From: Bolinopsis microptera | Taxonomy: Eukaryota; Ctenophora; Tentaculata; Lobata; Bolinopsidae | Assembly: GCF_026151205.1 (NCBI RefSeq) | Contig: NC_087074.1 | Span: 19,636,740-19,700,739, forward strand | Reading direction: 5' to 3' | DNA: 64,000 nucleotides | In this document: positions 24,149-60,747 of the stretch, piece after piece | Numbering within the stretch: position 1 is the stretch's first letter | Layout of the letters: each line of letters begins with the position of its first letter | Made by a program: the position numbers and the translations under genes | The notes under the pieces: model-generated | Database searches by the model: none | The model's input: only the letters and a program-made list of their open reading frames with translations | Told to the model about the DNA's origin: nothing

Positions 24149-27100
24149 TTAACTTCCATTGAACAGCGACGACACTTTAGTGTTATCAATTTTGTGGTTG
24201 AAAAGTTCGATCTCCTCATTTCTCTTGTTTAGGAACCTTTCAACAATATCATCAAACAGTGGGTGTTCCATCTTCTTTCCTTCCATCATGGAAACGTAAT
24301 GAGAGCCATTATAAAACCACCCTTCTGGAAGTTTCTCTCTCGCTGCTTCCAACTTTAGCATTTCCTTTTCTTTTGAACTCAAAGAAAATTTAGTGTATTT
24401 ATCTTTTTTTACGGGAGGTTTCGGAGCGCAGCCTTGTAACCACTGCTTCACCTGCTGTTCAGTTATTTTGTAGCCAGTGAAAATGAAACAATTCTTGCTG
24501 CCAGGAGGCAGGGGCTTGTTGAAAGTATTGAGAGAAATAGTTTCACTTCTTGGAGTACACTCCAGGGTGTAAAGGTTGTTATCCTCCGTAAACTTAGCTC
24601 TGCCTCCAACATAGAATATAGAGCCGGACATCATCAACCTATCAACATACACTCGTCCCTCCTTCTGGTGGAGACTCTTCAGATGGGACATGAAGCGAGC
24701 TTTACAGAGATCAGCTCCGAACGAGACTGTAAGATATGTAATGGGAATGAAGGGAGGATTTGGTTTGTATTGTAAGGAATACCATCCTGGAGCAGTAAAA
24801 TGTCTTGAAATTGGCAGGGTAGATTTAGCAAATGCATCAACTGTACACATTTCTACAAGGCTATCTTTGTCTATGTAGTTGTTTCCCACAACCTCAATAA
24901 TGCTGCACGAAGGGTTCAGGGTCTTCAAGAAACTAATTCTCTCATCTTTACCTTTCTGTTTGGAAGGAATACAACCGGTAACAATGATGTTGTTAACCCA
25001 TCCCTCGCTACACTGCTCAATTATTTTTGGGAAACATGTTCGGTTGCTTATAAACAGATTTCGTAAGTCAATGCAAGTGCTCACGGAGGCAACATGACAC
25101 GATTGCCTGGTAAACTTATCAGGATGATGGACAATAGCTGCAACCACCTCAGGTACTTCAACATAAGCAGAAACAATGACAATAACTCGAATCGGATCAT
25201 TTCCCCTCTTGCTCAGCATCTGTAGAGCTTTTTGCATGTTGTGAGCACTGAACAGCTCTTCAGAACCAAGTGGCTGTCTCAGTACAATGAAATGGTGGTC
25301 TTCTTTAGTTCCTTCTGTTACTATGGAGCAGATTTTCTCTTGGTTGCTACCAGGTATTCCAACGAGCAATGTGATGAAGATGAATGGTTCTGCTGTTTCA
25401 GATTTCATTGCTGGATTGACATCAAGTTGGTTGTAGGTGAAATTCCCCAGAGAACTTAGCATCATGTGAGGTGCAAATGACGGGTAAGTGGGATAAGAAG
25501 ACTCGATCATCCTGCCCTCATCTGAAGTTCCCAAGTTGCCAACATCACTGGTTTTAACAGTCACAATATTTTCGTATCTCAGCAGGAAATCTGGAGGTAA
25601 ATTTTCTGCAGACTCTGGTATATTGTACTCCCTAAACAAAGGCAGCAAAGTGTCATTTGTGAACCTCACACCTTTCCCTCGTTGCCAGAACACCAAGCAG
25701 AACCTCTTCAGGAATGGAGGTAAGCAATTAGAGGCATGTTCAAGGTAAAGTGCGACAGCGATTGATCCAGTTTTCTTTACTCTTATCTCCTTCAAGTCGT
25801 TTATTCTGATTTGAAGAAGCGTAGAATAAGGTGATGTTATGTTGATGGTGTTGTCCTCCAATCTGAACATAGCTTCATAAGTGTTAACATCGTTGCACAG
25901 CAGAGAGCACGGTACAGAGTCTGCATTTTGTGCTCCAAAATGGTTCCATTGCACATAGGTAGGAATAACGTCTGTAACGATCAGCAGCTCAGAGTCATCA
26001 GCAGAGACGTCATCATTTTTCACGATAATGTGAGACTCAAAGAATGTGTCTTGAAATACCAATGGTTTGTAGACAACTTTAGTATTTTGCAAACTAGCAA
26101 TATTTGAAACAGCTGCTCCAAACACTTTCATGCTTGACTTTGAGTTTGAACTCACTTTATTTCCTTTAACATCAAAAGCTTCTAGACTCACTTCAATCTT
26201 TACAGAGCTTGCTTTGAAATTTACAAGCTGAGGATATTTGTAAGTACTGAGCTTTTCAGTGAACTTCTTAGTGAAGTATTGAAGTAGCTTTGAGGAGTTT
26301 TGTGTGGTTAAAAAGCGTTGAATAGTTCTTTGTGTAGTGGCAGCCATGGCATCATATATTGATGAAAGGAGGACCAAATCACTGGAGTCAACATTGTCGT
26401 GTATAAAGTAAGTTCTTCCACAGCTCAGCGAACTTGGAGATTCTATAACAGAGCAAGTAATGAAGAATGGTTTTCTAGTAACCGCATGTTTTTCCAATCC
26501 AAAAACTGTGGCACCATGAGCATGACTATCACTTGTTTGGTTGCCATGCTCTAGATAGCTCACAACAGGATCAATAGCCTTATCCAAACTGTTATCTAGA
26601 GTTTCACTTTTTATCATATTGGACACATTCATTATCATAGTATTCCACTGGAAATTTAACAAGATGCTTGTATCTTTCAGCAGATGTTTTAGAGATCCTA
26701 GATCAAAGTCACTGAACACGGAGAGCTTTTCAAAGTTGAGTGGTATTAGCGAGTGAGTAAGTCCGAAAAATCCTTGTGAGCCATAGTCTTCCAGAGCGTA
26801 TGCTTGAAGTAGTGGCCATTTTTCAATAACCATTGGGTCGAACTCATTAGAGTCATTGGAGTACGGAATGGCAATTTTATTGACACCTTGAGTCATGGAG
26901 ATAAAGGAGTAAATTTTATGGTCCTCAACTATGTTCTCATCGCTAGAGATGTTGGCATCAAGGCAGTGAATTTGAAGATCATGAACTTTGGCTAGGTAGG
27001 GAAGGATGCTTTTCATGTCTTTGTGAGTGACATAAAGCTCGACTTTAGACGGCTTAATGAGCATCACAATTTCATCTGTATCAATTTCAAAGTATTTGCT

Positions 27101-27334
27101 GAAGCTCCCTGATTTATACATGGAGCAGCCAAATAAGATGAAATTAATGAAATGCCTACAGTCAGGATTGTAACGACTGTCAATTCCATTGATAGCAACA
27201 AAACCATCAATATTGTTATCAACCAGATATCTTTGAATTTTGTTGATTCTCAACAAGCACAATGTCGACGCATCTTTCACACATGTCTTTTTCTCAGTTT
27301 GAAATGGTTGAGATATGCTTCCAATGACAACCAT
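24149..27334 (-). CDS. DNAAF9: DNAAF9 / Shulin homologue (C20orf194 family), single coding exon
   Basis: Ciliary factor. In the family, Tetrahymena Shulin packages outer dynein arms in the cytoplasm for delivery to cilia, and human C20orf194 (DNAAF9) is its orthologue. The reading frame is 1,061 aa from ATG 27334, close to the family length. Family-typical blocks: GIDSRYNPDCRHFINFILFG (about 50-70), IPYSNDSNEFDPMVIEKWPL (about 157-176), CGRTYFI (about 306), a middle pita-bread-like region, a degenerate P-loop LLVGIPGSNQEKIC (about 657-670) lacking a canonical GK[ST], GWYS (851), a CobW-C-like stretch RVYVDRLMMSGSIFYVGGRA, and a C-terminal LPEGWFYNGSHYV. The ATG sits just after TTTCTTTTTAG, a good splice acceptor, so a 5' UTR exon probably lies upstream. 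The whole coding region lacks introns, unlike the vertebrate gene. No stop or frameshift interrupts it. Confidence 0.94.
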   Translation of the reverse strand: MVVIGSISQPFQTEKKTCVKDASTLCLLRINKIQRYLVDNNIDGFVAINGIDSRYNPDCRHFINFILFGCSMYKSGSFSKYFEIDTDEIVMLIKPSKVELYVTHKDMKSILPYLAKVHDLQIHCLDANISSDENIVEDHKIYSFISMTQGVNKIAIPYSNDSNEFDPMVIEKWPLLQAYALEDYGSQGFFGLTHSLIPLNFEKLSVFSDFDLGSLKHLLKDTSILLNFQWNTMIMNVSNMIKSETLDNSLDKAIDPVVSYLEHGNQTSDSHAHGATVFGLEKHAVTRKPFFITCSVIESPSSLSCGRTYFIHDNVDSSDLVLLSSIYDAMAATTQRTIQRFLTTQNSSKLLQYFTKKFTEKLSTYKYPQLVNFKASSVKIEVSLEAFDVKGNKVSSNSKSSMKVFGAAVSNIASLQNTKVVYKPLVFQDTFFESHIIVKNDDVSADDSELLIVTDVIPTYVQWNHFGAQNADSVPCSLLCNDVNTYEAMFRLEDNTINITSPYSTLLQIRINDLKEIRVKKTGSIAVALYLEHASNCLPPFLKRFCLVFWQRGKGVRFTNDTLLPLFREYNIPESAENLPPDFLLRYENIVTVKTSDVGNLGTSDEGRMIESSYPTYPSFAPHMMLSSLGNFTYNQLDVNPAMKSETAEPFIFITLLVGIPGSNQEKICSIVTEGTKEDHHFIVLRQPLGSEELFSAHNMQKALQMLSKRGNDPIRVIVIVSAYVEVPEVVAAIVHHPDKFTRQSCHVASVSTCIDLRNLFISNRTCFPKIIEQCSEGWVNNIIVTGCIPSKQKGKDERISFLKTLNPSCSIIEVVGNNYIDKDSLVEMCTVDAFAKSTLPISRHFTAPGWYSLQYKPNPPFIPITYLTVSFGADLCKARFMSHLKSLHQKEGRVYVDRLMMSGSIFYVGGRAKFTEDNNLYTLECTPRSETISLNTFNKPLPPGSKNCFIFTGYKITEQQVKQWLQGCAPKPPVKKDKYTKFSLSSKEKEMLKLEAAREKLPEGWFYNGSHYVSMMEGKKMEHPLFDDIVERFLNKRNEEIELFNHKIDNTKVSSLFNGS

Positions 27335-27339
27335 CACCT

Positions 27340-28980
27340 AAAAAGAAATAATGTAAAATAAATGAAATAGTTCAACTCCATTATAAAATTTCGCAATACA
27401 TTAGAGTTAAATAGTCAATGAAACAATAAGTTCCCCAAGACACTCTAACATCCAAGCCTTCTATAAAACGTGGCAACTCCAAATCTTAACAGTGAGTGAT
27501 AAGACAGTTCAGTTAATATTGCTTTAAGGCCTAAAGTACAATGCACCCAATAATACAATTCAAAACCTTCCATCTCAAATTCATATAGTCACAGTTTATG
27601 TTTATACTAGTCGTGAGCATTGAATTCCGATTTATTAAATCCTGCACAGAGAAGGTAGTACTTCTTCTTCTACAGTCCCTAGTTTTTGGATGCTGGAGCG
27701 AATTAGCATACATCCACAAAATAACAAAAATGACCACTTTTGCAACACTTTCTAGTATCGAATCCGTAACATTGCACTATGCCAATTTGTTTAGTTACAG
27801 TATGCCAACAATTTCCGTAACAAAGAAACAGTAAACAATTAAAAGAACTTAGTTAGATCTTGAGCCAATCGAAACAGGTGATATTATGTCTCATTTCTTA
27901 TTTCAGCTGAACACAATCAATTTATGATTTTTGAAGGTTTCTGTTAGTACATCGTATTATATTTTTGAAGAACGACCCTCCGCCTCCAGTATGTAGTTTC
28001 GTATCAAGTGAGCTTATCAAGTTAAGAAAAATTTTGTTTTTCTTAACTTGTAAGGCTCGTTAGTCCGTGTGCCACGTGGCACATATTCACCCTATCTATA
28101 CCTTTCGGTCATAATTCCGGTTGAGAACCAATACTGTGTCTAAACTTAACGTTCATAAGCTGTTAACCTAATCTTAGATGGCACTGTGGAAGGGATACAA
28201 CAAAATAAGAGATTACAAAATTGATTTTGTCCAGCCATAAGGTCAGAAACCCTCAACAATAGTCATATAAAAACCAATTCAGTAGAGTACTATATTAATT
28301 GCAGCACACTACAATGTAAATATACTGAAGGGGTACCCTTTTTGATCTTTTGGCAGGGTCTCTCAATCACGTATCAGATCATTCAGCTGAGTCGGTCGTT
28401 GAGACATTAAACAAATGTTCAATTTCGCATAGATCCAATGGATCCTTATTAGCTACTCCCTAAAACATACATATAAACTAGACGACACTGGGATTCAAAT
28501 CCTTGATGCAAGTTTGCCTGAATTGGAAATATCGTCAAAAAGGCATTTCACTATTTGTTCCGTATTGGCATGTACGCTAGCATGGCGGCAAAGTGCAGCT
28601 GAATCGGCGGGTATGATGGGGATCTGGGGAGCCAGATGGGTGTCTTGAGTTGTTCACTGCCAGTTTCTCCTTCTCTTCCACCCAGCATAAAGCTGGGTGG
28701 CTCCTAACTTCACTACCAGGTTGTATATTGACTAAATAAAAATTTAGTTATACCTATTTTTACCACTTTCTTCTCAATCAGTTTCGATTATTCAACCTCC
28801 ATAATACTCTCTTCTTTTATGAGTCCAGGATAACAGTTGCTGCATCCTCAGCAAGTTTCTTGTTGAGAGGATGGTTTTTTGATGATCTTGCTAGCATAAT
28901 GACCACTGGTCGCTGCTAACACTGTTCTCATTAATTCTTGTCTTCAATTTTGTTATTTCACCATTCAACTCACTTTCTTT
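27340..28980. other. Unassigned sequence upstream of DNAAF9
   Basis: Should hold the DNAAF9 promoter and 5' exon. From about 28620 to 28745 there is a less AT-rich patch with a hairpin CCACCCAGC...GCTGGGTGG and then CTAAATAAAAATTTA, perhaps the end of a SINE or the 5' UTR of the LINE that follows. No coding exon seen. Confidence 0.4.
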
Positions 28981-29083
28981 CCTCAGCTACACTTAATCGC
29001 TGACAACTGGTGGTGACTGCTCTTGATACCTTGACGGCAATCCAGTGAACCTGAATCCAGCTCCCTCATCTTGGTACAATACA

Positions 29084-30439
29084 ATGTTTAACCTCAAAGA
29101 TACTATTGAATCGCTTTCATCCGCTTCAACACAGGACCTAGCAGCCCTCATTAAAACTGCTCAGAAGATTATGGATTTTAGGCACCTGGTTGGACACTTG
29201 GAATTTATTCCAGATATAATTGACAGTGCAGTTTGTTCCGACTTGTTGGCTGAGTGTGATTCCCTCAACTTGTCGGCTTCATCCAGAAGACCTGAGTCAC
29301 AATGGCTCAGTGTAACCGACAGGCCTTACATATATGTCGATAGTAAGCCAGTACATCATGCTAAGGACATTACCACACTTCCTACTTTCAGTAAAGTTAT
29401 GGAGACATTTAATGAGAGGTTTAATTGCAAAATGGACTCTTGTTTAGTACTCAAGTACACTTCAACAAGTGCAGGTACGAGTCTGCATGCAGACGACGAA
29501 ACAACCATGGACACAAATCAGCCCATTTGTAATCTATCAATTGGTGAACCCCGGACGATTGACTTTCTCTCCAATGCTGACAAAAAGGTTGTCCGATCCT
29601 TCAGAATGGAGAACAGAAGCCTGGTGCTTATGAAACCTGGTACCCAGGAGGTTATGAAGCATCGCGTTCCTGGTGAATCAGGCGCACCTGGGACACCTTC
29701 GCTGAGATATTCATTATCCTTCCGGGCTATGGCAAAGCGTCCTCAGCCACCTCTACCGGATGTAGCACAAACGAAGGGAGCTGAACAACCGTCAGGTCAC
29801 GTCAAGAGTGATATTGATAACGGTAGCCTCACAGCTCCAGCATTCAGACATGTGTGCCTAATCGCTGGTGATAGCTATGCTGCCAGGCTGGACACTGTAA
29901 AACTTGGTAGAAAATGTGTTGATGTTGTGTCTGTTGCCAGTGGAGGAGCAAGAATACATCAAGTGATGGAGCAGATTAGAGATTTTAAGTCTAAGAATGA
30001 GTCTGTCATTGTAGATAAGATATGTATTAGTGTCGGAACGAACGACATTAGATATGCGGACTCTTTAGATAAGATTAAGCTTAAATTTAAGAGTCTATGT
30101 GCTTTAATCAAAGAACTTTATACTTCTTCAAAAGTTTATTTTCAGTCCCTTTTACCTCTGCCTTGCAAAAGCAGGCATGACTGGAGAACTAACTCTTTTG
30201 TTATGAAAATGAATAGTGTCATCAAGAATGAATGTATATATCGAAGATTCCATATGTTAGACGCTTTTCGTCCATTTTCTCTACGATACTTTGATCCTCG
30301 AGTACCTCATATCAGAGATGATAGATTTTTCAAGGCTGGAGACATCCATCCCAGTGAGGCTAGGGGCATGGGTGTCCCAGCTAAACTTTATCTGAGAGCG
30401 GTTCATAGTAACTTTTTTGACCCATTCACTTTTCAGTAA
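29084..30439 (+). CDS. LINE ORF1: AlkB-like 2OG-Fe(II) dioxygenase fused to SGNH hydrolase
   Basis: First in-frame ATG is 29084, but the frame is open from GTG 29045 and residue numbers below count from there (464 aa). N-terminal half: an AlkB-type fold signature, with Fe ligands H148-x-D150 in SLHADDE and distal H206 in VMKHRVPG, and the 2-oxoglutarate-binding R221-x5-R227 in RYSLSFR, preceded by the SIGEPRTIDF strand. C-terminal half: an SGNH/GDSL hydrolase with block I GDSYA (S277), block III GTND (N333) and block V DIHPS (D433, H435). SGNH esterase domains are known in ORF1 of CR1-type LINEs; I do not know of the AlkB fusion as a described architecture. All catalytic residues of both domains are present, so both may be active. 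Possible roles are demethylating the element's RNA or cDNA, and lipid or membrane contact for the esterase; both are inference. Confidence 0.88.
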   Translation: MFNLKDTIESLSSASTQDLAALIKTAQKIMDFRHLVGHLEFIPDIIDSAVCSDLLAECDSLNLSASSRRPESQWLSVTDRPYIYVDSKPVHHAKDITTLPTFSKVMETFNERFNCKMDSCLVLKYTSTSAGTSLHADDETTMDTNQPICNLSIGEPRTIDFLSNADKKVVRSFRMENRSLVLMKPGTQEVMKHRVPGESGAPGTPSLRYSLSFRAMAKRPQPPLPDVAQTKGAEQPSGHVKSDIDNGSLTAPAFRHVCLIAGDSYAARLDTVKLGRKCVDVVSVASGGARIHQVMEQIRDFKSKNESVIVDKICISVGTNDIRYADSLDKIKLKFKSLCALIKELYTSSKVYFQSLLPLPCKSRHDWRTNSFVMKMNSVIKNECIYRRFHMLDAFRPFSLRYFDPRVPHIRDDRFFKAGDIHPSEARGMGVPAKLYLRAVHSNFFDPFTFQ

Positions 30440-30562
30440 TTACTATTAGGGCTTTAGGGGTCAAGCTAGTTTTCATAATCCGAATTTTAAGATATATTAG
30501 ACTGTGTTTTAAAAGTTTTTGGAGCTGGATGTCGGTTAACAGGGTTCCCTTAATGCTACTAG

Positions 30563-30901
30563 ATGATAGATCTAAGTCAATATAGATTAAGAGTTGGTAT
30601 TTATAACAACAGTAAGAACCGCAGATCTAAGCAGGTTAGTATAACAGGTAACTTTGTGCCCGACATCGGGGTTCTTGATGCTTTAAGACTTTTTGTTTTG
30701 ATTTATTTGTATCTCTATTTTGCATTATGTGTGATGAGTGTGACGATTGGGATGGCTTTGGAGTGTCATTTTAGACCTTTTACTGTCACAGCCTTCCACA
30801 GCATCTCAGACAATGAATTTATTCATCTCTTCCACAGTCATAGCAAAAGCTATGCTGCGGTATTAATGTTTTTTCTCTTCAAAAGACTGGTGGCTTTATA
30901 A
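30563..30901 (+). CDS. Small hydrophobic ORF between LINE ORF1 and ORF2
   Basis: 112-aa open frame starting at ATG 30563, with a hydrophobic stretch (LFVLIYLYLYFALCVMSV) in its middle. It lies in the ORF1-ORF2 spacer of an element whose other frames are well kept, but it has no recognised domain. It could be a remnant of an extended ORF1 or chance. Confidence 0.25.
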   Translation: MIDLSQYRLRVGIYNNSKNRRSKQVSITGNFVPDIGVLDALRLFVLIYLYLYFALCVMSVTIGMALECHFRPFTVTAFHSISDNEFIHLFHSHSKSYAAVLMFFLFKRLVAL

Positions 30902-30992
30902 AATTTTAGGGGCTTCTCCTGGCTTACTTGGCAAGCTGAACTTCACTGGTCTTGAAAACAAGCCAGACAGTTACGGATACATTCAGCTAATT

Positions 30993-33900
30993 ATGCACTA
31001 CCTCAATATTATTACTGTTAGCTGCATGCTTTGGATACATACCTTGAACGCTGTCCTTTTAATTATTGTCAACCCAAGCTTACTTAACCCTGGGCCTACT
31101 ACATACCTCAAGGTTGTTTCTTTTAATACGCATGGCCTGATTCCCTTCTCACAGCTACAGTCCGACAATCCTTCTTTTGACAACACTAAAATATTTGAAC
31201 TCCATCACTATATTCACTGCCATGAACCAGACATCCTCCTGATCAATGAATCTTGGCTTAAAAAGTCTATCATTGACTCTGAAGTCATACCTGAATCGTA
31301 CAAAGTTTTTAGACTTGATCGTTCCTTACAAACCCATCCACCAGATCCACAGAATCCAAGAAGATTTAGGAAGCATGGGGGTGGCGTTTTAGTTGCTATA
31401 CGTAGGGACATTGATATTGTATCTACTAAGTTAGAGTACAAGTGCCCGGCAGAGCTTCTTGGTATAACACTCAAATTTAGGGACGGTAGTAAACTAATTC
31501 TTTGCAGCTTCTATAGGGTAGGTACTTTAGGGGCCAACAATCATAACGCCTTCCAAGATTATGTTAGGAAGGCAAGGCAACGTAGAGGTGTTAGAGGTAT
31601 TGTAATTGCAGGGGATCTTAATCTACCTGGTATTGATTGGCAGAATTACTGTAGCAGCAATCCGGTTGAACAGCTCTTTCTAGATACTTTTAGTAACTTT
31701 GGTTTAGAACAACTTATTACCAGTCCAACACATACTGGAGGAAACATTCTTGATCTAGTCTTAACCGATAAACCCCATCTTATCTCCGATATAAAAATTT
31801 CAGAACATAATATTCCATGTAAGTCCGACCATTTTGCAGTCTCCTTTACTTTGAAATCAAAGGTGAAGCGCATCAAATCGCAAAAGAGGGAATCTTTAAA
31901 TTTTAAAAGAGCAAATTGGGATGCACTTAATGCAGACCTTGCAGATATTGACTGGCAGGCAGAGTTCACTGGTAATATGGAAACATCATGGAACAAGTTT
32001 AAGGAAGTTTTAGAGCAAAGAACCAATGAACATATTCCAAAGATTAAAATTGGAGGCAGGGCTCAACCTCCTTGGTTTGACGCTGAGTCTCATCAGGCCT
32101 GCCTAGAAAAAGAAAGGCTACACAAAAGTTATAAAGAAACCACGGACCCTTCCTGCAAGGCTGAGAAGTACTTTAAGTTCTCTAAAAGCAGAAGCGATTT
32201 TAAGAAAATTGCCTCCAACAAGATGGCATCTAGCTTTGAGGACGAGGATGATTCGAATCTAATTACAAAGAAATTCTGGTCCTATGTAAAAGCAACATCT
32301 AAGAATACTCGCATACCTGAACAAATTCACCTAGAAGATGTACACAAAAGTGATCATTCTGACCAAGCAAACCTATTTAATACCTTTTTTCATCAACAGT
32401 TCTCATCGCCTAGTGATTATGATGTACATGTTGATAACACACTCACACAGGATGATATTGATTATGTATCTACCCTTTTCAGTTCGTCTAGGATAGTAGA
32501 TATTCTCAAGAATTTGAATACTAGAAAAGCTATGGGACCGGATAAAATCCATGGTGAAGTTCTTAAAAATTGTGCCTTTACGTTAGCCCCAGCACTGGAG
32601 ATTCTTTTCACAAAGTGCTATGTATCCGGCTTCCTACCTTCAAATTGGAAATATGCAATTGTTGTTCCAGTACACAAGAAAGGCTCCAAGAATGACATTA
32701 AGAATTATAGGCCAATATCTTTGACTAGCTTAGTTATGAAAGTCATGGAAAGAATTATTCGAGATGAACTTTTGAGTAGATGTTATGATAAAATTGATCC
32801 TTGTCAACATGGTTTCCTGCCTCACAAATCTTGTGCAACTCAGATGGTTGAATTCTGCGATAGCCTATCCCTCTCTCTTAACAAGAACATTAGATCTGAT
32901 ATTGTTTACTTCGATTTTGCCAAAGCATTCGATTCCGTTAACCACGACTTAATACTATATTAGCTAAAATTTTATTATAACATCGATGGAATGCTTCTCC
33001 AATTTATGAAAAGTTACCTCTCCGGACGTCAGCAATGTGTAGTTGTTAATGGGGCTATCTCTGCAACCCTACCGGTGTTGTCAGGTGTTCCTCAAGGGTC
33101 AATAATCGGACCAACACTTTTTGTTCTTTTCATAAATGATATATATTCTGGACTTTCTCAGGGCACTAATATCCTTTTATACGCTGATGATACTAAAATG
33201 TGGAGAGAGATATCCCAAGAGGAAGACCACCATATACTTCAAAGCGATATTAATTATCTCATGACATGGGCAAGAACTAATAAGATGAAGTTTCATCCTG
33301 ATAAATGTAAGGTCTTAGCTATACTTAAGAGGTGGTCTCCCTTAGATGGCATTTTACCATTTACACGTTACACTTACTCTATGGGCCAAACTCTTCTTGA
33401 TTATACAGATTCTGAAAAAGATTTAGGCATATTCATGACGTCTAATCTAAATTTTAATAGCCAGGCCGATGCTCTATATGGTAAAGCTAACCAAAAATTT
33501 GGCATGCTTAAGAGAAATTGTCATTTTATTAATGATCTGAACAAGAGAAGAGTCTTGTATCTTACTCTTGTACGCTCAATATTCGAACACTGTCCCATCA
33601 TTTGGCGACCAGCGTCCAGTAGCACTATCAATAGGCTTGAAGGATTGCAGAAAAGGGCCCTCAAATGGATTCGTAATGATTACGGTGTAAGCTATAGTGT
33701 AGAGGAAATCTATAATGCCCATTGTAAACAGTTAAATATTCTGCCCCTAAAGTACAGGTTTGATTACCATGATCTCAAGTTCTTTCATTCCCTAGTGCAT
33801 CAATACCACCCATGCACCACTCTGCCTCAGTACCTTACTTTCTTCTCCGGGTCAAGCCGACTGAGAAGCTCACATCTTGATCACTTATCAGTAATATCTT

Positions 33901-34115
33901 CAATTCCACCTGGCTCAGCTATATCTAAATCTTACTTTTATCGAGCTCATCTCACTTGGAACCGACTTCCTCTTTCCCTTCGAGAGATTATCAGACCAGG
34001 TGTGTTTAAAACAGAACTTATTAAACACATCTGGAAGGAACATGTTTGTACTGCATCTGTAGATATTGACCCTAGTTCAGATCCTGACAATTCTTTTTCT
34101 CCAGACTACGGGTAG
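30993..34115 (+). pseudogene. LINE ORF2: endonuclease-reverse transcriptase, one in-frame stop
   Basis: One continuous frame of 1,040 codons broken only by TAG at 32961-32963. Starts with a hydrophobic leader and an NPGP motif (31086-31097). Endonuclease motifs: SFNTHGL (Asn), INESWL (Glu), GDLNLPGIDW, and KSDHF at the end. Reverse transcriptase motifs: PVHKKG and NYRPISLTS, FDFAKAFDSV (catalytic Asp), SGVPQGSIIGP, YADD at about 33183 (catalytic Asp pair), then a C-terminal region with IWRPASSSTINRLEGLQKRA. The order and lack of RNase H fit CR1/L2-type LINEs. The stop falls between the two RT catalytic motifs, so the protein as read here would be inactive unless the stop is read through or is a sequencing error. 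Confidence 0.9.
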
Positions 34116-34589
34116 TGTATTCCTCTATTATTTTTGTTTTAATTTTTTTTTTGAGGTACTCATCACGCATTTTTGCTTTATTCGGATACAATTTTGATTT
34201 AGTCTTTTATATTCAATTATTTAAATTTTATCGTTAAAACTTCATTCCATTGGAAATATTACAAATCAGCCAATTGTAATTGAGAATTTTTGGGTTGTGG
34301 CAATTATTCTTAAAAACCTAGAAATGCCTCCTAAGTTCACAGCTCATATTATTTGCCCATTTTTCTCCTTCTGCACTTGGGGCCCAATGTAATTGCTCGA
34401 CTTTTCATCAGGTCTCTCGAGGCCTTTTGTTTGGTTATTTGGGTGTATTGGTGTCCCCTGATTGTTATCATCGCTGTACACTTGTCAAGGCATTTCTTGG
34501 TCGCTCTAGTCCATTTTTAGAAATTCTATACAACATTGATATTGTAATAAATTCTGATGATAATAATTGAAAGATTTCAATAAAAAAAA

Positions 34590-42063: not shown

Positions 42064-43500
42064 TTTTATTTTTTTTTTAAAGAGAGGCTGGGCCAAGATA
42101 GCCCACGAGAGGATAGCATTGAGATGCTCTGCCTACCTCTGGGGTGTGGCAACCTTGGGGATGGTTGCCGGTGAAATCAGAGTGATTGGTGGAGGATGGT
42201 GTAAGATGATATATGAGTCAAAATGATACGCTTAAATGCCAGCTGGGTTTAGAAAAGTAAAACGAGACGAGACAGCATATGAGATAATACTTTAAGTCAC
42301 CCCGGTCTGATCCAGCTCTTCCGGCACAATTAAGCGTTTGGTGCGGTTTGCGAAATTGACAATTGTGGTGATGTGTTGGTTGTCGAATATGTCATTGACA
42401 GAGAGGTAGTAGTCCTGGAAATATTGACCTCTAATTTGGGCAATAGCTGGACACTGTCCAAGGAAGTGTGAGACAGTTTCCTCTCCGTCGCCGCACATAG
42501 GACAAGCACTGGTGTTTGATTTGCAAATGGTGTGAAGGTGTTTGTTTAAGCCGCAGTGACCCGTGATGAGGTGAACTGCAGTTCTATAATCTTGTCTGTT
42601 TTTGCTGAGTGTAGTGTTGAGGTTTTTGATGATTTTGGCATGCTTGTGGCCGAGTGTCAGTTTGGTGTGTCTGGGACCGTCAGTTAACCAAGTTTCCTGA
42701 TTCAGTCTGTTGACTTTGTTGTCGATTTGACGCTTGATGTAGGATTGTGGAATTGGACACTTCAAAGTGGATTCACTGGTTGTACCAAGCTTGGCCAGCT
42801 CATCTGCTTTTTCGTTCCCCCACAATCCGATGTGTGCTGCAATCCATCGTATCTCTAGCGTGTTGTTGGATCCGAGTGCATTAAGAGAGTCGTAACAGTC
42901 TCTTGTAGTTCTACTCCGCGTTGAAAGCGCAGAGATAGCTTGTATAGATGAGAGACTGTCAGACCATATGATGATATGTGTGTTGGTATAGGTAGAGAGA
43001 TATTTGCAAGCTTCAATGATGGCGGTGAGCTCTGTTTGGTAAACAGTGCAATAATCAGGGAGCTCGAATGATCTTTCTTCAAGGGTGGTGTTATTGTTGT
43101 CAGTCGTGATGATATAGCCAGCCCCGCATCCTGAGTCTGTGAGTGACCCGTCAGTGTAGCAGGTGATCGTTTCACTGGTAATGTTGTCAATGGTGTTTTG
43201 AAGTGAATTTCTATATTCAGTGGTATCGGCTCCAGGAGTTGTGACGGTGAAGTGCCGTCCCAGCATCATGGTTGGTGTTGCATTGTTAGGTCTCTCGTTG
43301 CTCTAGGTGGGATAATGAGGTCTGCCATGAATTGTTTGTTGATAGTGGTATGATTTTTGATAGTTCCCTTCCTGAAGGCGATAGTTTCAAGAGTGAGGCT
43401 GCCATAAGCTTGTAGCCTGGCCGCACCCTTTGCTGCTTCGCCTTGCAGGAACAGTATGATGTCAGAAGTGTCGGTGAGGTGATTCAATGCGATAAAAGGT
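42064..43500 (-). mobile_element. 5'-truncated LINE with RNase H domain, 14-bp TSDs
   Basis: 1,437-bp insertion flanked by GTTCGTGTTGTTAT at 42050-42063 and 43501-43514. Its A-tail (T-run on the plus strand, 42064-42080) adjoins the left copy, as expected for target-primed reverse transcription of a minus-strand LINE. Only the part after the reverse transcriptase is present. The clear target duplications mark it as a fairly recent, dead-on-arrival copy. Confidence 0.88.
42292..43490 (-). pseudogene. LINE ORF2 C-terminus: linker, RNase H and zinc knuckle
   Basis: Two frames joined by a one-base shift near 43268. The first carries the post-RT linker FLQGEAAKGAARLQAYGSL. The second carries RNase H with D in CYTDGSLTDSG, E in VYQTELTAIIEA, D in IWSDSLSSIQAI, the HIGLWGNEKADELAK end block, and then a CPMCGDGEETVSHFLGQCP knuckle. 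This order is typical of I/R1/LOA-type LINEs with RNase H. The upstream endonuclease and RT are absent because of 5' truncation. Confidence 0.88.
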
Positions 43501-47960: not shown

Positions 47961-48284
47961 CTATAGAGCTGACAGCGCTAGTGGGCCCCCTTATGTACCA
48001 GGACTCTACCGGCAACGATCGACTAACGCCCCAGATATAAGCAAAGATTGGCGCGCAGTCATAAACAGCGGGTGCGCGCACAGAACTGCTTCCCGCTAGT
48101 ACCAATAACACTCACCTGACTCCCACGTGACACTAACCTCACGCCGCGGTGCGGTATTTCGATCATGACAAGCCAAACCGGATTAAACCACTTGTTAATA
48201 TAGCCGTTCTGCTTGCCAGTCTCTACATTAATTAGCCCGCTGGGTTTTGCTGCCCCCTGTTTGCAATTTTGCCGCCCCCTCGGA

Positions 48285-48780
48285 GAGTGTAATGGGAGTA
48301 TCGCTACAATATGGGAGTGTAATGGGAGTATCGCTACAATATGGGAGTGTAATGGGAGTATCGCTACAATGTGGGAGTGTAATGGGAGTATCGCTACAAT
48401 ATGGGAGTGTAATGGGAGTATCGCTACAATGTGGGAGTGTAATGGGAGTATCGCTACAATATGGGAGTGTAATGGGAGTATCGCTACAATATGGGAGTGT
48501 AATGGGAGTATCGCTACAATGTGGGAGTGTAATGGGAGTATCGCTACAATATGGGAGTGTAATGGGAGTATCGCTACAATGTGGGAGTGTAATGGGAGTA
48601 TCGCTACAATATGGGAGTGTAATGGGAGTATCGCTACAATGTGGGAGTGTAATGGGAGTATCGCTACAATGTGGGAGTATTATGGGAGTATTGCTACATT
48701 GTGGGAGTGTAATGGGAGTATCGCTACAATGTGGGAGTGTAATGGGAGTATCGCTACATTGTGGGAGTGTTATGGGAGTA
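48285..48780. repeat. Minisatellite, 30-bp unit, about 16.5 copies
   Basis: Exact 30-bp period, GAGTGTAATGGGAGTATCGC + TACAAT(A/G)TGG. The unit itself looks like two related parts, each starting GGGAGT. One A/G site (48311, then every 30 bp) varies; reading 5' to 3' it is A A G A G A A G A G A G G G G G, and the last units gather further changes. Because 30 is divisible by three, two frames stay open as peptide repeats (ECNGSIATIW, GVSLQYGSVM); I treat both as non-coding. Confidence 0.95.
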
Positions 48781-49339
48781 ATGTATAGTAGTTACCACAC
48801 CAAACGTGTGTAATGTGTGTAATGGCATAAATGGACCCTGGATCAGAACCTGTTTTTCCTGTGTCGTACAATATGATCCCTGCTCCTGTTATTTCTGGAC
48901 TGAGTGAGAGTCCACCTCACGTGACGTCACAAACCCTCACGTTTTAGCTCAGCCACCAAAAGGCAGATAGTATCAATACAGTTCCCCACCACCTAACACA
49001 CTATCCAAACGTTAGCACACCCGCAACCGCCATTAGCAACCTACGTCTCACCAAGTCTCAAGAGCCAGCATTACTCAGCACGGGCGTCATCCTTTCATGG
49101 TGTTGAGCGGCCAGGGTAACCACCCAGAACTTCCCTAGGGACCAAGTTAGTAAATCTCCGGAGGTGCAACCCCGATTCGGCTTATACCTTAGCAGGTATT
49201 ATCATCCAGTGGCCCTCAGGGAAGGGGCTTAATGCAGATAGATGGACTCCAGTAGGACGCTCCCCAAGTGGAGGGTCGCCACCTCTATATGACGGTGGTC
49301 AGTGGGTGTCGCGACAAAAAAAAAAAAAAAAAAAAAAAA
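48781..49339 (+). repeat. Unclassified segment ending in A24
   Basis: A less AT-rich stretch ends in 24 consecutive A (49316-49339), the look of a retrotransposed SINE or LINE tail on the plus strand. No tRNA-like boxes or LINE protein motifs were found in it, and the 5' edge is not clear. Confidence 0.4.
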
Positions 49340-52300
49340 TCAATCCTTAAAGTGACCAGTACTGATGGCAAACTTAGTCAAATGATCAATTTACCTAGCT
49401 TGCTAGTCTATTGATCGCTTTTTTTTTGTTGTGTCAAACAGTATATACTATATACAATAAATTAATTCAAGTGTTGCAATTGGCAGAGCACAATACAGAG
49501 GTAACGGAAATTGTCCACTGCTACCAATATTATATAATATGAAATATCAAAAATCAAATATTGAATTGAATTGAAATAAATTTTCGTGCACATACAGAAT
49601 GAATGGTTAATAATTTAATATATATGTAGATCAAGGTCTGTGCACGGGATGCTTCCTGGAAGAATCCAGTTCTTTTAGCGGGGCACCCTACCTAAAGCCA
49701 AATTGAGATATAATAATCATATTCCTAAGAAATAATCAGAAATCGAATACCAATCAAATAATATGATATATATGAGTAGTAACCATATTTACTATGCAAA
49801 ATGCCCCAACCACATAGTGTAAATTTATATAGAATTCAAATTCCATATCATCATTAAACCTCAATACCTAGTCAATATAATAGCCCAAGCAAAATTAAAT
49901 AACTTCTTATATACCTTACTGTCATACTACAAATTAATTAAACATTTGAAATCTGTTGACCAGAGAATAAATTTCTAAGCCTAATGCAAGTGAAATAATT
50001 TAGATGCAATAATGAATGCCTAATGTGAGTATCATTTGTCAATGTCCTTGTAAAAAAGTCTGTACAAGAGATATGAGTAACTAATATAGAAGAAAAAACA
50101 GGAAGTTGTCGTCTGTTGTAAAATAAATAAAATATCTAGAATATAAATTAGAATATAAAATAACATTCAGTCAATGTGTCGTCAATAAACTGTACAATTA
50201 TCAAATGTTAAAACTGGGTGATACAGTCACCAAAAAAAATACTAAGTATGATAAGTTAATAAATTAAATGTGGTCTATAAAACTACCACTAAGTATAATA
50301 GGTCAATAAATTAAAAGTGGTTTATAAAACTACCACTGTGGGAACCCCTTCTCCAGTTAAAACATGTCAGTCATGTGCAAAATCAATCAGAATGGTAAGG
50401 TGGTAAAAAAGGGAATATCTTTTCGATACGTCAATTATATATGCCTCAGATTTAAAAGAATTAGAAGTTACTTAGTTATCGTCGACTATGATTGCAGTGT
50501 AAAATTTGTCATATGAATTGTCGACGGTATAATTAGGGTCTGTTGTTATAGATGATAGTAGCTGTTTCTTATACGAATCACTAAAGCTTTTAACATCGGG
50601 CAGATTTCGTAGATCTGTTGGAACATTATTCCAACATTTTGCCCCCAAGTATTGAAAGTTTTTATGTGATGTTGATCTATTGACATAAAGGTTGCAGCTT
50701 TCGCCGCTCCTACTACCTCCTGATATGTAACTAAATTTGTTCATAAAGTTTGTAGGACAATTGTCATGGATGATTCTAAACATATAATTTGACAGATGGA
50801 GTTGTCGTCTAAGATGGAGTGGTAACCATTTCATGTCTCTATAAACATTAAGGCTGCTCTCTGTTTTTGGAACGTTGAGAGCTATTTTGGCTACCTTTTT
50901 GTACAGAGTGTCAAGTTCAGCAAGTTTTGTCTTGCCAGCTCTACAATAGATCGTGTCTAAATAATCGAATTGTGGCAACATGAGTGCATTGGCAAACATT
51001 TTCCTATATTTAATGGGTAGCAGTGCTTTACTTCTATACATGGCACCAATTCTCTTCATGACCTTCCTAATAATATAATCTACATGGCTTTTGAAGTTTA
51101 ATTTACTATCTAAAATGAGGCCAAGATATTTTGTCTCTTTGCACTCCTTGATTGTGAAAGTTACCTCATTACAATCAATGGTTATTTCATCATGTTGGTC
51201 AACAGAATCAAACAATAGGAATTCAGTCTTCTTTTCATTGAGTGATAATTTATTAACACTGAGCCATTTAAAGATTGTCATAAGTTCTATTTTCATGTTT
51301 ATAAATGTGCTTCTGCAGGTTTGATCAAAGAATAGTGCACCATCATCTGCAAATAGAAAGGGCTTAGATAGGTTACAGGCATAAATGATGTCATTTATGA
51401 AGATACTAAATAATATAGGCCCAATGATGCTTCCTTGTGGTACACCACTCAGAACTTCTAAAAATGAGCTTAGATTGCCATTGATCCTAGTGCATTGATA
51501 TCTACAAGATAAGAAGTTCTTAAACCAGGTTAAAGCAATGCCACCAATTCCATAATATGCCAATTTTTGAAGCAATATTTCATGATTCACTGTGTCAAAG
51601 GCCTTCTTAAGATCAAGAAAGATGATTCCTGGTTTATAAGACTTAGATTTACTCATATATATATTTCGTCCATCAGATCGTACATCAGATAAGTTGTGGA
51701 GTGATTTTTCCGAAAGCCATATTGATGCCGGATGAAAAGTTTGTTCTCTTCCATGTAATCAGTGAGTTGCTTGCCGACAAAGTATTCTATAAGTTTTCCT
51801 ACAAGTGGAAGGATGGATATTGGCCTGTAATTATTAGGATCATCTTTCATTCCTGCCTTATGGATGGGAGTTACTCTAGCTTTTTTACAAAGGGTTGGTA
51901 CAACACCTGTATTAAGGCTCAGATTGACAATGTGGGTCAGTGGCTCAACTATGTGTGGTACAGCTTGCTTAAGTAAAAATAGAGGCACATTGTCATATGA
52001 GGCCTTGTCATTCTTGAGCGTTTCGACAATCGACATACATTAGGATATCAGTTTCATTTATTTCTTGGAATCTATCAAATGAGATATTAGAAGTTCTAGG
52101 AGGTAAAAAATCAGTAAAACTAACTCTTTCAATATTGGGGGCCTGATTTTGTAATCTTGATCCAACATTTGCAAAATGAAAGTTAAATAGCTCAGGATCA
52201 TTCTCATTGATAGTTTGACAATTAGTTGTACCAGGGGTCATATTTGATGCCAGTTTGATAGTTTTCCATATCCCTTTAAGATCATTCTTGGCACTTTTAA

Positions 52301-53333
52301 CTTGTAGATCATCGATTACATCAGCCTTTTTGCAGGTTTTAGCTAATTTATTTCTAATATTTCTCTGAATCTTGTAGCAATCCCAGGCCTCATTACACTT
52401 TATACATTTGCTACATGTACCACATTTATTGCAATTTCCATTGTCTCTCTTATCCTTCTTTTTACGGAATTTCTTTAGAAGAAAATGTGTATGATTAATG
52501 GCATTTAAAAGTTCAGTAGAAGGTTTATGTATGTATGAACTTTTCATGCCTTTCTATGGTCTTGCAAGGGAAGAAGGTTGCATATGCCTGTTCAATATGA
52601 TGACAAAGGCCAGCAGTGATAGCTTCAACATCTGTACTTTCCAATAGTGGACTGTAATCAGAACAGGTATCTAGATAGTCTAAGAATTAAAATTGTTTAA
52701 CATTACGTTTACAATGATTTCTAATTTCAACCTTCTCAAATTTAGGAGCTATAGGTACTTTACAATCTATCTCACACATAATAGCTTGATGATCTCCAAT
52801 ACGTTCATCAAGAACAGAAGATTGGACAAAATCTGCATAACAGTTAGTGAATATTACATCAATAGTAGTCTGGGTAAAATTGTCTCCACGTTTAGCAACT
52901 CTAGTTATCCCTTGAATGGTTTGAACTAGATTGTAACATCTCAAGGTCATATCTAATTTTTTGTACTGGGTGGATGAGATATTATTCTGGTCTATGTTTA
53001 TATCCCCAATCCAGATAACCTTTTTCCCATTCAGTTTTTTCATGCAAAAATGAATGTATTCAATAAAGTTATCAACACTGCAATAATTTCCAGAGCGATA
53101 GAAGCAGCAAACATTGATCTTGCTATTCTTAAGCTTCACCCATAATGCTTCAATGTTATCAAGCTTACTATCCATAACTAATTCTGTGTAAGCTAGTTTT
53201 TTGTTTATCATTAAGCCACAACCACCCCTAGAACTGTTTGGCCTGTCACATCGCATAAGGTTGAAGGAGGAAGGAATATTTATGGTGTCTGTGTCAATAG
53301 TATCATTAAGATTCATCTCATTTAGGGAAAGTA

Positions 53334-55331
53334 TATATGGGCAATTTCATGAAACATGAACAAGGAGGGAAAAAAATAAATTTCAGTTATGGCACTAGCT
53401 TTGATTGGAGTCTGAAAGAGAAGATTATAAACTGTCAGACACAAATAACCGCTTATAAATATCTCACTTCGTTTCTGTGTTATCGCGTTTTCAAAATACC
53501 CATAAATTGTCATGTTTTACAGGCTAAAACTACTCTATAATAAAAGCTGTTTACTAAAAAGAGATTGTTGTAATATTCATTAATTCTTGATCTGTAAAGG
53601 TGCATACCACTTCACTGAAGCTGTATGCAAAATTTGGGACTCAAAATTTAAGCAGATTCGGAGCAATGCTATTCTACTTTCTCCTGTTTTTAGTGTAAAT
53701 TACTATACATAAAAAACAAAAAAGTTTTCTGCTGGCCACATTTCATGTTATTTCTTGCTGAAATCTTGCTAAAACAAGCTAACTCTGATGTCAAGACATA
53801 ATGTACTTGTTTATTTAGATCCATAGATATCAGATCATGTCAATACCATTGTCAAGTAAGTTACATGTCAAGTAATTTACGTGTCAAGTAATTTACACAT
53901 ATGCTTTTTATTCAGTAATAGTAGTAAAACACAACAAGTAACGATTGTCAAACAGAATAAAAGTTATTTAAAAGTGATAATAGATTGGTTCTGGTCAGAA
54001 TTACATTAAAGAAATCTATAAAAATGGTTAAAAATGGTTAAAAATGGTTAAAAATTGACTTTTCGAAAATAATACTTTTCTTTACAGAAAATCCAGTGGC
54101 CTGCTTGAACACAAATTTTTGAGCTGGGAAACATTCGTACATTTACGCCCACCTACCTACTCTGTATAACTGGGCTAACTGTGGACCTAATCAGTGGATC
54201 AATCAACCAATTAAGGGGGCCGGGGGGTCTTCATCAAAATTCCCTCGAAATTGACTTTTTAGTTGTTTCTGATAGAAGGGAGTGATATCTATCAAATGCT
54301 TTTGGTCCCATGGAAAAATATTATTCCTAGCCGAAATTATTGTCGGTCAAAGGTCAGCACTTATGTGTAATTGTATTGCGCGAGCGATTTTCAATCACGT
54401 GTCCTGAAAATCGAGTCTAAAAATCTATTTTCTCCTACATGTTTTGAGCAATCACCCTGAAACTTTCAGGATATGTTCTAGAGATAATTTAAAAGAGATG
54501 AGCCAGACAGAATTTTGAGATAAGCCTTTAAACATATTTTATTCGATTTTGAAAATCTTGGACCTCGTTTTTTGACGATTTTTTGAGGTCCAAGATTTTC
54601 AAAAATTGAAAATCGCTCGCGCAATACAATTACACATAAGCGCTGACATTTGACCGATAATAATTTCGTCTAGGAACAATATTTTTCCATGGGACCAAAA
54701 GCATCTGATAGATATCACTCCCCTCTATTAGAAACAACTATAAAGTCAATTTCGAGAAAATGTTGATGAAGGCCCCCCCGGCCCCCTTAATTGGCTAATG
54801 ATAAACTGATATATCATTATTAATCATATATTACATAGTTCATACACTTAGCAAACGAATTAAAGACAAAGGGGCAGCTTTAAACAGTTAAAATCAAAGG
54901 ATTGTGTAACAGTGTAAACTACTTGACACAAAAGAGTAACTTACTTTACAAGGAACAAAGGCTTCTACAGAACACAGCTATTAACCATTTACCAAAACAA
55001 ACCCTTTCCAGTACAGGCAAGACATTTGCCAGTGTGCATGAAAAATATTTAAATGTTTACTCTCACACCTGGGCACGAAATGAGATTTCAATACACGTTG
55101 GTCAGGAATGTCAATTTGTGCCCTGTAATTTACTTTACATTTTCAAACGTGCCTCACTCAAAATCCATAGCAGTTGGAGTAAAAATCTTAATATAGCTGT
55201 GTGTGGAGTACATAGGAGATGTTTCATGCAATTTATCATGATTCTGTTATGTTTGTGTAATGCTTGAGAGTCAGAATAAGGCCAAATTTTTGTGCAAAGT
55301 GTAATTTACTTTACGTGAAATCGCCCATATA
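53334..55331. mobile_element. TA-flanked inverted-repeat element nested in the LINE
   Basis: TSD TA at 53334-53335 and 55330-55331; element 53336-55329 (1,994 bp). TIR TATGGGC(A/G)ATTTCA(T/C)G. Removing the element plus one TA rejoins the LINE endonuclease in frame (DICI|LSLNEM), which fixes its ends. Internal motif close to AAGTAATTTAC: forward copies at about 53853, 53870 and 53886; reverse copies near 54912, 54932, 55126 and at the right TIR (55300). One open frame of about 120 codons (54902-55267) overlaps the motifs and looks accidental. No transposase. Confidence 0.85.
54211..54790. mobile_element. TTAA-flanked MITE with long inverted arms, nested
   Basis: TTAA at 54211-54214 and 54787-54790 around 572 bp. 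Arms of about 190 bp (GGGGGCCGGGGGG..., 54215-54405 and 54600-54786) are inverted copies with several mismatches. The centre holds a second hairpin, GAAAATCTTGGACCTC / GAGGTCCAAGATTTTC (54550-54600). TTAA and G/C-rich ends fit piggyBac- or Kolobok-type mobilisation. It lies inside the element at 53334-55331. Confidence 0.8.
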
Positions 55332-59350: not shown

Positions 59351-60087
59351 CTACAAGTACACTGACTTGTTATCAGAATTTATGAAATGTTATATGTTAT
59401 GTTCATATTCTTTATCTACGTGCTGATATTATATAGTTTGTTTTACATAGTATGTATTTAGTGTAAGTTGTGGCTGTTGATTTCTATAAACCGTTTTCAA
59501 CAAGTTTTTACAAATGCAGGATTTTGTGTGGAGATTTAGGTAGAATAAAGAACTGTGGCTCAAATTTTATTATATTTAGGTCAAGGCATAATACTATATT
59601 TAGGTATTTAGGTCAGCCATGATCCATTGAGCTCGCAGGACTGAAAGTCCTTGTAAAGCAGGTCTGGCTTAAATTGTAAGTAGGTGCAGGTTGTTTCATT
59701 TCCAAGGATAGCAACTTTATTTTGTTTTAAATAAATTGTGTATACTGCTCAAAAGCCCCTATGGGTGGCCTTCGGGTCTTTCAATCAATCACACACAACT
59801 CTAACGTTATACTGCAACATCATTATTCTAAAGATTTCATGTACAGTGCTTGAACTTCACCTTGTTTTGTCATTTCAGTAAGGTCCTAGCTCTTATAGGG
59901 TTCACAACAGGCGTTGTTGTTAACTAATCAGCAGACTATCTGAATGATGTAACGCTAATTTGATTCTAATTCTAATTCAAGTTACTATCCAATTACTCAA
60001 GGAAGGAATAATGGGTAAATAATTTACTCAAAAGTAAGCCTGGTTGGCCATGCTGCTGCCCTTCTATTCTTTTTGTTTTACTTATTT

Positions 60088-60747
60088 ATGGCTGATAACT
60101 ATCTGTTACTCCAATCCTTAACTTCAATTTCGTCTAGTAGTATGGTTACAACTGAAAGGAAAAGAAACAACCCTCTTAAGCTCCTTGCTGAAACTGGAAG
60201 ACGTGAACAGCCAAGAACCCGAAAACGAAACAAAGGAGAGGATTCGGTTGACAACAAAAATGGCAACCAAATTATCTTGTTCTTTAGTCCCGGCCTAAAA
60301 GAAAAACTTATTAAGGATAGGGATCTGATCGTGGCAAAAAAGTATTTGGTGAAAATACCCTCGAAAGTGACCTGTGAAATGATATTCAAAGAGTTTCTCT
60401 ATCATGAAAATCAAGAAAATTCGATCTACTTCAGTAATGGTGTATCTCAAGATATGATTAGTGGAATCAGGACTTACTTTAATCATAGATTCATCGTTGA
60501 ACTACTTTACAAGCCAGAACTACCTCAGATCAAGAACTTGGCTGGAAAAACAGTATTCACTGAGATTTATGGTTGCGAACATTTGTTGCGGTTGATGACT
60601 TGTATTGGAAAACTCATTTCACCTAATGAGTTTGATGAATGTGGGTTTAATATTCTTCAGATGCATTACCAGAGATTTTTGGAATTCATTGATGTTAACA
60701 GAGATACCTACATGCCTGGAGATAATTATTTTCAGGTCGTTCAATGA
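60088..60747 (+). CDS. MRG-domain protein (MRG15/MORF4L family), intronless
   Basis: 219 aa from the first ATG (60088); a second in-frame ATG at 60142 (MVTTERKRNN) is also possible. After a basic N-terminus (RKRNNPLKLL, RTRKRNKGE) comes an MRG domain: LKEKLIKDRDLIVAKKYL with VKIPSK, ISGIRTYFNHRFIVELLYKPELPQ (family: GI.EYFN...LLYKFERPQ), TEIYGCEHLLRLMTCIGK (family: YGAPHLLRLFVRIG), then the end helix YQRFLEFIDVNRDTYMPGDN. MRG proteins are nuclear scaffolds of Tip60/NuA4 acetyltransferase and Sin3 deacetylase complexes. No chromodomain is present, and the whole MRG domain is one exon, as in vertebrate MORF4L2, a retrocopy. AATAAA follows at 60838. Divergence is high but the frame is intact. 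Confidence 0.85.
   Translation: MADNYLLLQSLTSISSSSMVTTERKRNNPLKLLAETGRREQPRTRKRNKGEDSVDNKNGNQIILFFSPGLKEKLIKDRDLIVAKKYLVKIPSKVTCEMIFKEFLYHENQENSIYFSNGVSQDMISGIRTYFNHRFIVELLYKPELPQIKNLAGKTVFTEIYGCEHLLRLMTCIGKLISPNEFDECGFNILQMHYQRFLEFIDVNRDTYMPGDNYFQVVQ

Follow-up and report, generated by a model that had tools for sequence, protein, structure and literature searches.

The closest described relatives of the element reported here are LINEs with an esterase-type (type IV) ORF1, such as zebrafish ZfL2-1 (PMC3905857; PMC4120745). In these elements the ORF1 carries an SGNH domain, usually after a coiled coil, and stands before an ORF2 that encodes an endonuclease and a reverse transcriptase (RT). 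As far as its available text goes, a 2014 survey of 448 elements of the Jockey superfamily divides ORF1s into RRM, CCHC, PHD, transposase-22 and esterase types, and reports esterase ORF1s only from vertebrate CR1/L2 subgroups (PMC4120745). The available part of a 2013 paper places them in several clades, spread over many animal phyla, describes lipid binding by esterase ORF1s and notes that the esterase-containing ORF1ps of Repbase are without structural RNA-binding domains (PMC3905857). The words 'AlkB' and 'oxygenase' were not found in the main text of either paper. SGNH modules are common to very different mobile elements, as illustrated, in the available portions of the respective papers, by bdelloid LTR elements with GDSL and DEDDy ORFs (PMC5408684) and by a fish Helitron with an SGNH gene (PMC4021074); neither 'AlkB' nor 'dioxygenase' was found in the available main text of the rotifer paper (PMC5408684).

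Retrotransposons with an AlkB-like enzyme of their own are also known. According to the available sections of the paper that describes them, Ty3/Gypsy elements of the orchid Phalaenopsis carry, as an additional ORF in an LTR element, an AlkB-like 2-oxoglutarate (2OG) dioxygenase that keeps its cofactor residues and lies near RNA demethylases of the ALKBH5/ALKBH9B kind (PMC9289625). The same sections mention plant RNA viruses (Alphaflexi-, Betaflexi- and Closteroviridae) whose AlkB is thought to repair the genome; these are likewise replicating RNA elements, likened to ours by description alone, and are without RT, unlike the LINE family described below. For the enzymes themselves, the available part of PMC7968990 states that E. 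coli AlkB prefers m1A and m3C, that its D135 is located next to N6 of the base, that the change D135I brings a gain of m6A activity and that m1A disrupts reverse transcriptase. The substrates of ALKBH3 are m1A, m3C and m1G, for the most part in single-stranded DNA or RNA, and AlkB resembles it in taking m1A and m3C, chiefly in single-stranded DNA or RNA (PMC10816986, available part). Pocket residue numbers were not found in PMC9370705.

Here we describe a LINE ORF1 in a stretch of 64,000 nucleotides from the ctenophore Bolinopsis microptera, the whole of which is called the window below. An ionotropic glutamate receptor from the same genome agrees with a ctenophore host: its ligand-binding part is nearest to Mnemiopsis ML032222a (E 3.4e-30) and then to 4zdm, from Pleurobrachia (E 9.5e-24), other matches having E-values of 8.3e-15 or larger; with the whole frame, vertebrate kainate receptors ranked first. 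This LINE ORF1 resembles the type IV form in its C-terminal SGNH domain, with the catalytic Ser, Asn and His kept, and in its position before an endonuclease-RT ORF2, and differs from it in having a complete AlkB domain ahead of the esterase. The orchid enzyme differs in its turn, since the AlkB described here is fused to SGNH and is ALKBH2/3-like. The first-pass annotation of this locus had suspected that the fusion was undescribed, and the literature bears this out so far: no AlkB in a LINE ORF1 or a Helitron was found among the best-matching publications, mostly those outside subscription, and the nearest case is the orchid Ty3/Gypsy element. We regard the AlkB-SGNH LINE ORF1 as provisionally new, because the comparison was with literature only, without most subscription papers, Repbase or Dfam.

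Two enzyme domains in one ORF1

The frame of ORF1 (29084..30439, forward strand) is open from a GTG at 29045 or an ATG at 29084 to the stop at 30439, and from the ATG encodes 451 amino acids: a short helical N-terminus, an AlkB-type 2OG-Fe(II) dioxygenase domain, a linker and an SGNH hydrolase domain. The AlkB domain covers 29174..29737 (residues 31-218 by structure), and the Pfam model 2OG-FeII_Oxy_2 (AlkB, PF13532) matches residues 70-214 with an E-value of 4.6e-15 and 56.8 bits against a cut-off of 31.2; bit thresholds throughout are the curated Pfam cut-offs. Beyond the linker (29738..29842, with pLDDT below 50 at residues 220-252), the esterase-type SGNH domain covers 29843..30412 (residues 254-443), where Lipase_GDSL_2 matches residues 263-426 (E 1.2e-10, 42.6 bits against a cut-off of 32.9).

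The HADDE motif (29486..29500) holds H135 and D137, which are iron ligands by homology. H193 (29660..29662) is the third ligand by homology, and RYSLSFR (29705..29725) contains R208 and R214 of RxxxxxR, both of these features having been placed by alignment and motif check. E139 of HADDE is invariant in an alignment of eight ORF1s; it is the fourth residue past the first His and so occupies the place of D135 of E. coli AlkB by count, if the first His ligand of that enzyme is H131, as we take it to be. In the other half of the protein the catalytic Ser, Asn and His lie in GDS, GTND and D-I-H motifs. A PDB sequence search with ORF1 put ALKBH3 on top (E 0.0073), with sialate O-acetylesterase among the matches that followed (E 0.032).

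An AlphaFold model of ORF1, made from the eight-row alignment (mean pLDDT 75.9, pTM 0.45), shows two helices at the N-terminus and supports a double-stranded beta-helix in the AlkB part. Structures of ALKBH2 and ALKBH3 rank first in Foldseek (E ~1e-9; TM-score by target ~0.7). With VIA-align, residues 31-218 fit on ALKBH2 at Z 19.8 (2.8 A, 176 residues) and residues 27-218 on ALKBH3 at Z 19.2 (3.0 A, 179 residues), and residues 254-443 fit on sialate O-acetylesterase (Z 18.4) and PAF acetylhydrolase (PAF-AH, Z 17.1). The m6A enzyme FTO also fits the AlkB part (Z 17.0), so that the substrate cannot be read from the fold alone. By profile, by the iron triad with RxxxxxR and by the double-stranded beta-helix fold the first domain belongs to the AlkB family, and by its motifs and fold the second belongs to the SGNH hydrolase superfamily. 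The first-pass annotation had read this ORF1 as a fusion of the two enzymes with complete catalytic sets (HxD...H...RxxxxxR and GDS/GTND/DxH), and had asked for a profile search and a structure prediction: both halves score over their Pfam cut-offs, both folds are matched and every motif is present. The residues that it listed as H148, D150, H206, R221 and R227 are correct when counted from the GTG, and correspond to H135, D137, H193, R208 and R214 from the ATG.

The element and its close copies

The LINE copy that hosts this ORF1 extends over 28567..34589 on the forward strand, and we have coined the family label LINEa for it in this analysis. Its 5' boundary is shared near GGCATGTACGC and its 3' end is a short A run. 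Two close copies have flanks that differ from those of the window copy: C8 is 99.5% identical over 6025 bases (window 28567-34589), and C13 is 99.4% identical over 5415 bases, a comparison that stops within ORF2. A clear target-site duplication was not found around the window LINE, where the only matches were of 6 bases and chance-like.

Downstream of ORF1, on the same strand, ORF2 is present in two pieces. The N-terminal part (30563..30898) matches the open ORF2 of C8 at 99% identity over 108 residues, and the remainder (30867..34112), in a different frame, contains the EEP endonuclease and RT (Pfam Exo_endo_phos_2 and RVT_1). A frame change at ~30.8-30.9 kb and one stop codon near 32961 interrupt this ORF2, so that this copy, taken in its entirety, is unlikely to be autonomous. 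In C8, both ORF1 (a 470-residue frame) and ORF2 (a 1184-residue frame, with EEP endonuclease and RT domains by Pfam) are open. The label of LINE ORF1 was thus well chosen in the first-pass annotation, because an endonuclease-RT ORF2 follows; dispersed copies with different flanks likewise mark the element as a LINE. It appears to be a recently active non-LTR retrotransposon, its movement being read from near-identical copies in different surroundings. That ORF1 might be a pseudogene was considered and rejected, as it is open in the window and in both close copies.

Conservation and selection within LINEa

A protein search of the genome with the window ORF1 returned at least 95 matches, copy counts being lower bounds with 94 of 779 first-look candidates scored. 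Both domains are spanned (query start at or before residue 54, end at or after 403) by 82 of the 95, of which 78 are without a stop, and the other 13 are partial. Among 30 LINEa loci, 10 from this search and 20 from a further set, the AlkB domain is open in 28 and there contains HxDxE, the second His and R[YF]SLSFR. The two exceptions are both partial copies, L004 being incomplete and L005 lacking the AlkB domain. The 30 loci hold 18 distinct AlkB domain sequences, with the L004 fragment counted. The first reading of this locus had raised the question whether the domain and its metal ligands persist in further long copies, and they do.

The alignment of eight sets seven other LINEa representatives against the window ORF1, with which they share 28-39% identity. 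Its AlkB region has 147 columns, 25 of them invariant, and H135, D137, H193, R208 and R214 all belong to these 25; the probability that all five would be invariant by chance is ~1e-4, and is the same after thinning close pairs to six rows. Chance motif matches as the source of both domains were rejected on the Pfam scores and these odds. The Pfam AlkB model matches three of the eight ORF1s over its cut-off (window, L013 and L014) and misses the other five (L015-L019), where the alignment runs from end to end and each of the five AlkB catalytic residues is retained; L017 and L019 have a weak match to 2OG-FeII_Oxy, below its cut-off. SGNH scores over the Pfam cut-off in all eight.

Values of dN/dS were obtained per region by the Nei-Gojobori method. 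For the pair L013/L014 they are 0.17 in the AlkB region, 0.45 in the linker and 0.09 in SGNH, and for L027/L030, from outside LINEa, the AlkB region gives 0.14 and SGNH is saturated. The AlkB region of L017/L019, two close copies, has 7 replacement differences and 0 silent ones, which is not a pattern of purifying selection, the counts being small. In other diverged pairs the silent sites of the AlkB region are saturated. Between the window copy and C8 the AlkB region shows no difference, and between the window copy and C13 it shows 2 silent changes. A separate observation on L017 and L019 is that GTS replaces GDS in their SGNH motif.

AlkB and SGNH in other elements of the genome

The Pfam AlkB model has at least 151 matches in the genome, a lower bound that comes from scoring 150 of 587 candidates; the matches listed are all over the cut-off and all but one are without stops. 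Further very long AlkB frames are also seen among the matches listed. Seventeen of these loci (10 + 7) were examined with their flanks. Three look host-like, L024 being nearest to ALKBH2 (E 3.9e-60) and L025 and L026 nearest to ALKBH3. These host frames and human ALKBH2 and ALKBH3 have the same fold, HxDxE, H and RxxxxxR as the ORF1 AlkB, yet identity to the latter is 16-20% among the structural matches listed, and LINEa forms a clade apart.

In the other 14 loci AlkB is over the Pfam cut-off. SGNH is over its own in L033 only and below it (E 7.5e-7 to 0.0042) in L027, L029, L030, L031, L032, L074 and L078; L076 and L079 have only a weak Lipase_GDSL match, and no Pfam SGNH or Lipase_GDSL match was found in L028, L075, L077 and L080. 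When all 14 are aligned with six LINEa rows, the SGNH Ser, Gly-x-Asn and His are kept in 20 of 20 regions (18 LINE, 2 Helitron). Neighbouring frames carry an endonuclease and RT by Pfam, some below cut-off, at L027, L028, L030, L031, L075, L076, L078 and L080. An endonuclease alone, again partly below cut-off, was seen in the scanned parts near L032, L077 and L079. Some ORF1s and ORF2s have a weak PHD finger match, below cut-off.

Two of the 14 loci are of Helitron type. In L029 a single very long frame contains SGNH, AlkB, Helitron_like_N and PIF1, and in L033 SGNH and AlkB share one frame, with Helitron_like_N in the next. The order of the two enzymes in the Helitrons, SGNH then AlkB, is the reverse of that in the LINEs. 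A wider sample of 40 short AlkB stretches, hand-picked for variety from the Pfam matches and mostly without regard to surroundings, proved open in 40 of 40 cases, with HxDxE in 39; the exception, L062, looks ALKBH8-like. A Glu four residues past the first His is a feature of 28 LINEa loci and of 39 of the 40 sampled stretches.

The genome also holds SGNH ORF1s without detected AlkB. In L101 (2260-3537, reverse strand), where an endonuclease frame adjoins, neither Pfam nor custom profiles detected AlkB in the SGNH ORF1; it is one of at least six rows of that shape, with frames of 426-434 residues. AlkB is thus not needed by every such element. L103, too, gave no AlkB with Pfam and custom profiles, and its SGNH frame scores below the Pfam cut-off. 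L102 carries AlkB. In L102 (1-1527, forward strand) a single open frame has an RT-like stretch, recognized by eye, followed by AlkB and SGNH, and this is perhaps a nested or fused element. Within the window, a second LINE remnant (50625..53334, reverse strand) has ORF2 pieces 98-100% identical to the AlkB-bearing family L031, and an ORF1 for it was not found within the window. A scan of viral contigs with the eight-row ORF1 alignment gave 10 pattern matches, none of which was confirmed.

Phylogeny and origin

In an AlkB tree of 29 rows, LINEa forms one clade (100/99). The four Helitron rows form another (100/100), L035 and L072 being called Helitron solely from their long frames and their placement in this tree. 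Host and human ALKBH2/3 group together (96/84) with LINEd beside them (94/89), the only mobile-element group that joins ALKBH2/3 in this tree; the deeper forks, and with them the position of LINEa relative to ALKBH2/3, may be read in more than one way. Another model gave the same placements of LINEa, the Helitrons and LINEd. The data are compatible with all mobile-element AlkBs forming a single clade (p-AU 0.271), and a single clade of all LINE AlkBs is borderline (p-AU 0.053). The LINE groups recur in an ORF2 tree of 14 elements of this genome, where the branch of LINEd is very long.

Taken together, the AlkB and ORF2 trees fit an old acquisition of AlkB with descent within the element groups, and AlkB may have been captured more than once. 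It is also conceivable that AlkB and SGNH make up a portable two-enzyme cassette, shared or traded by unrelated ctenophore mobile elements (several LINE groups and Helitrons), which would have spread through transposons of both RNA and DNA type within a single animal lineage and would serve as a kit against silencing or for genome repair. We offer this as a tentative suggestion, and one that we are somewhat inclined to doubt.

Possible roles of the AlkB domain

We propose that an ALKBH2/3-like demethylase in ORF1p clears RT-blocking m1A and m3C from the element RNA or from single-stranded cDNA. ORF1p would coat its own element RNA, and the SGNH part would attach the particle to membranes, a role that has been suggested for ZfL2-1. 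Using iron, oxygen and 2-oxoglutarate, the AlkB part would remove base methylations of the m1A/m3C type from RNA or single-stranded cDNA, which would result in full-length copies. Such a role in providing a methylation-free template is favoured by the m1A/m3C activity of ALKBH3 and AlkB, the effect of m1A on RT, the kept acidic Glu and the traits of esterase ORF1s, together with the structural match to ALKBH2 and ALKBH3, the conserved catalytic residues, the low dN/dS of two pairs and the signs of recent movement. Repair of RNA or cDNA, or erasure of host methyl marks, had been suggested in the first-pass annotation and is plausible. We put the chance that the explanation proposed here holds at about even. 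The replacement-only differences of L017/L019, the L101 ORF1 without detected AlkB, the five LINEa ORF1s that the Pfam AlkB model misses and the match to FTO count against it. Helitrons, which are not known to pass through an RNA stage, carry SGNH and AlkB too, hence a role confined to RT cannot account for everything. The pair in Helitrons speaks for a broader role, such as single-stranded DNA repair or the erasure of host marks.

Erasure could concern regulatory marks such as m6A on RNA, or 6mA and other marks on DNA, and would let the element or the region around it evade silencing by the host. The presence of AlkB in LINEs and Helitrons alike fits a function shared by elements of RNA and DNA type, and the orchid Ty3/Gypsy AlkB is an m6A RNA demethylase in vitro, as the available text of that paper reports (PMC9289625). 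However, the top structural matches of the ORF1 domain are ALKBH2 and ALKBH3, with FTO close behind (Z 17.0), and the Glu at the D135 place is acidic, whereas the change by which E. coli AlkB gains m6A activity is D135I. We therefore rate mark erasure as unlikely, if worth keeping in mind. Helitrons would also be accommodated by an AlkB that acts as a nucleic-acid-binding module, or that protects single-stranded DNA at integration, with catalysis secondary. Esterase ORF1s are without an RRM as far as the available text of PMC3905857 goes, and an AlkB fold with a hold on single-stranded nucleic acid would make up for this. Yet binding alone needs neither the iron ligands nor the two arginines, and these are kept in 8 of 8 ORF1s and 28 of 30 LINEa loci, which makes such a module distinctly improbable in our estimation.

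The domain could also be a functionless host ALKBH gene that one LINE copy captured by chance, since possible sources, ALKBH2- and ALKBH3-like frames, exist in the genome. For the family as a whole this is contradicted by the 82 of 95 matches that span both domains, on which ground capture in a single copy was rejected. The divergence of the families to ~30% identity, the low dN/dS in two comparisons and the clade that LINEa AlkBs form of their own (100/99) also stand against it, and we hold a functionless capture to be extremely improbable. The family lends itself to experiment: there are many open copies, some near-identical, and the two ordinary enzyme activities are assayable with purified protein. 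The esterase LINE without detected AlkB in the same genome offers a natural comparison.

Mobile elements with a nucleic-acid dealkylase of their own would be direct evidence that transposition is limited by base methylation, whether this is damage or a mark set by the host. With the AlkB-SGNH form the known LINE ORF1s would gain a further type, and the occurrence of both domains in Helitrons suggests that accessory enzymes are exchanged between element classes.

Other features of the window

Several further features of the window were recorded. A dynein axonemal assembly factor 9 gene, with DAAF9 domains, lies at 24149-27337 on the reverse strand as one uninterrupted frame of 1062 codons, and an MRG-domain protein is encoded in a single open frame at 60073-60747 on the forward strand. 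The RNase H frame of another retroelement is found at 42292-43269 (reverse strand), and a repetitive stretch at 48213-48813 (forward strand) is open in two frames.
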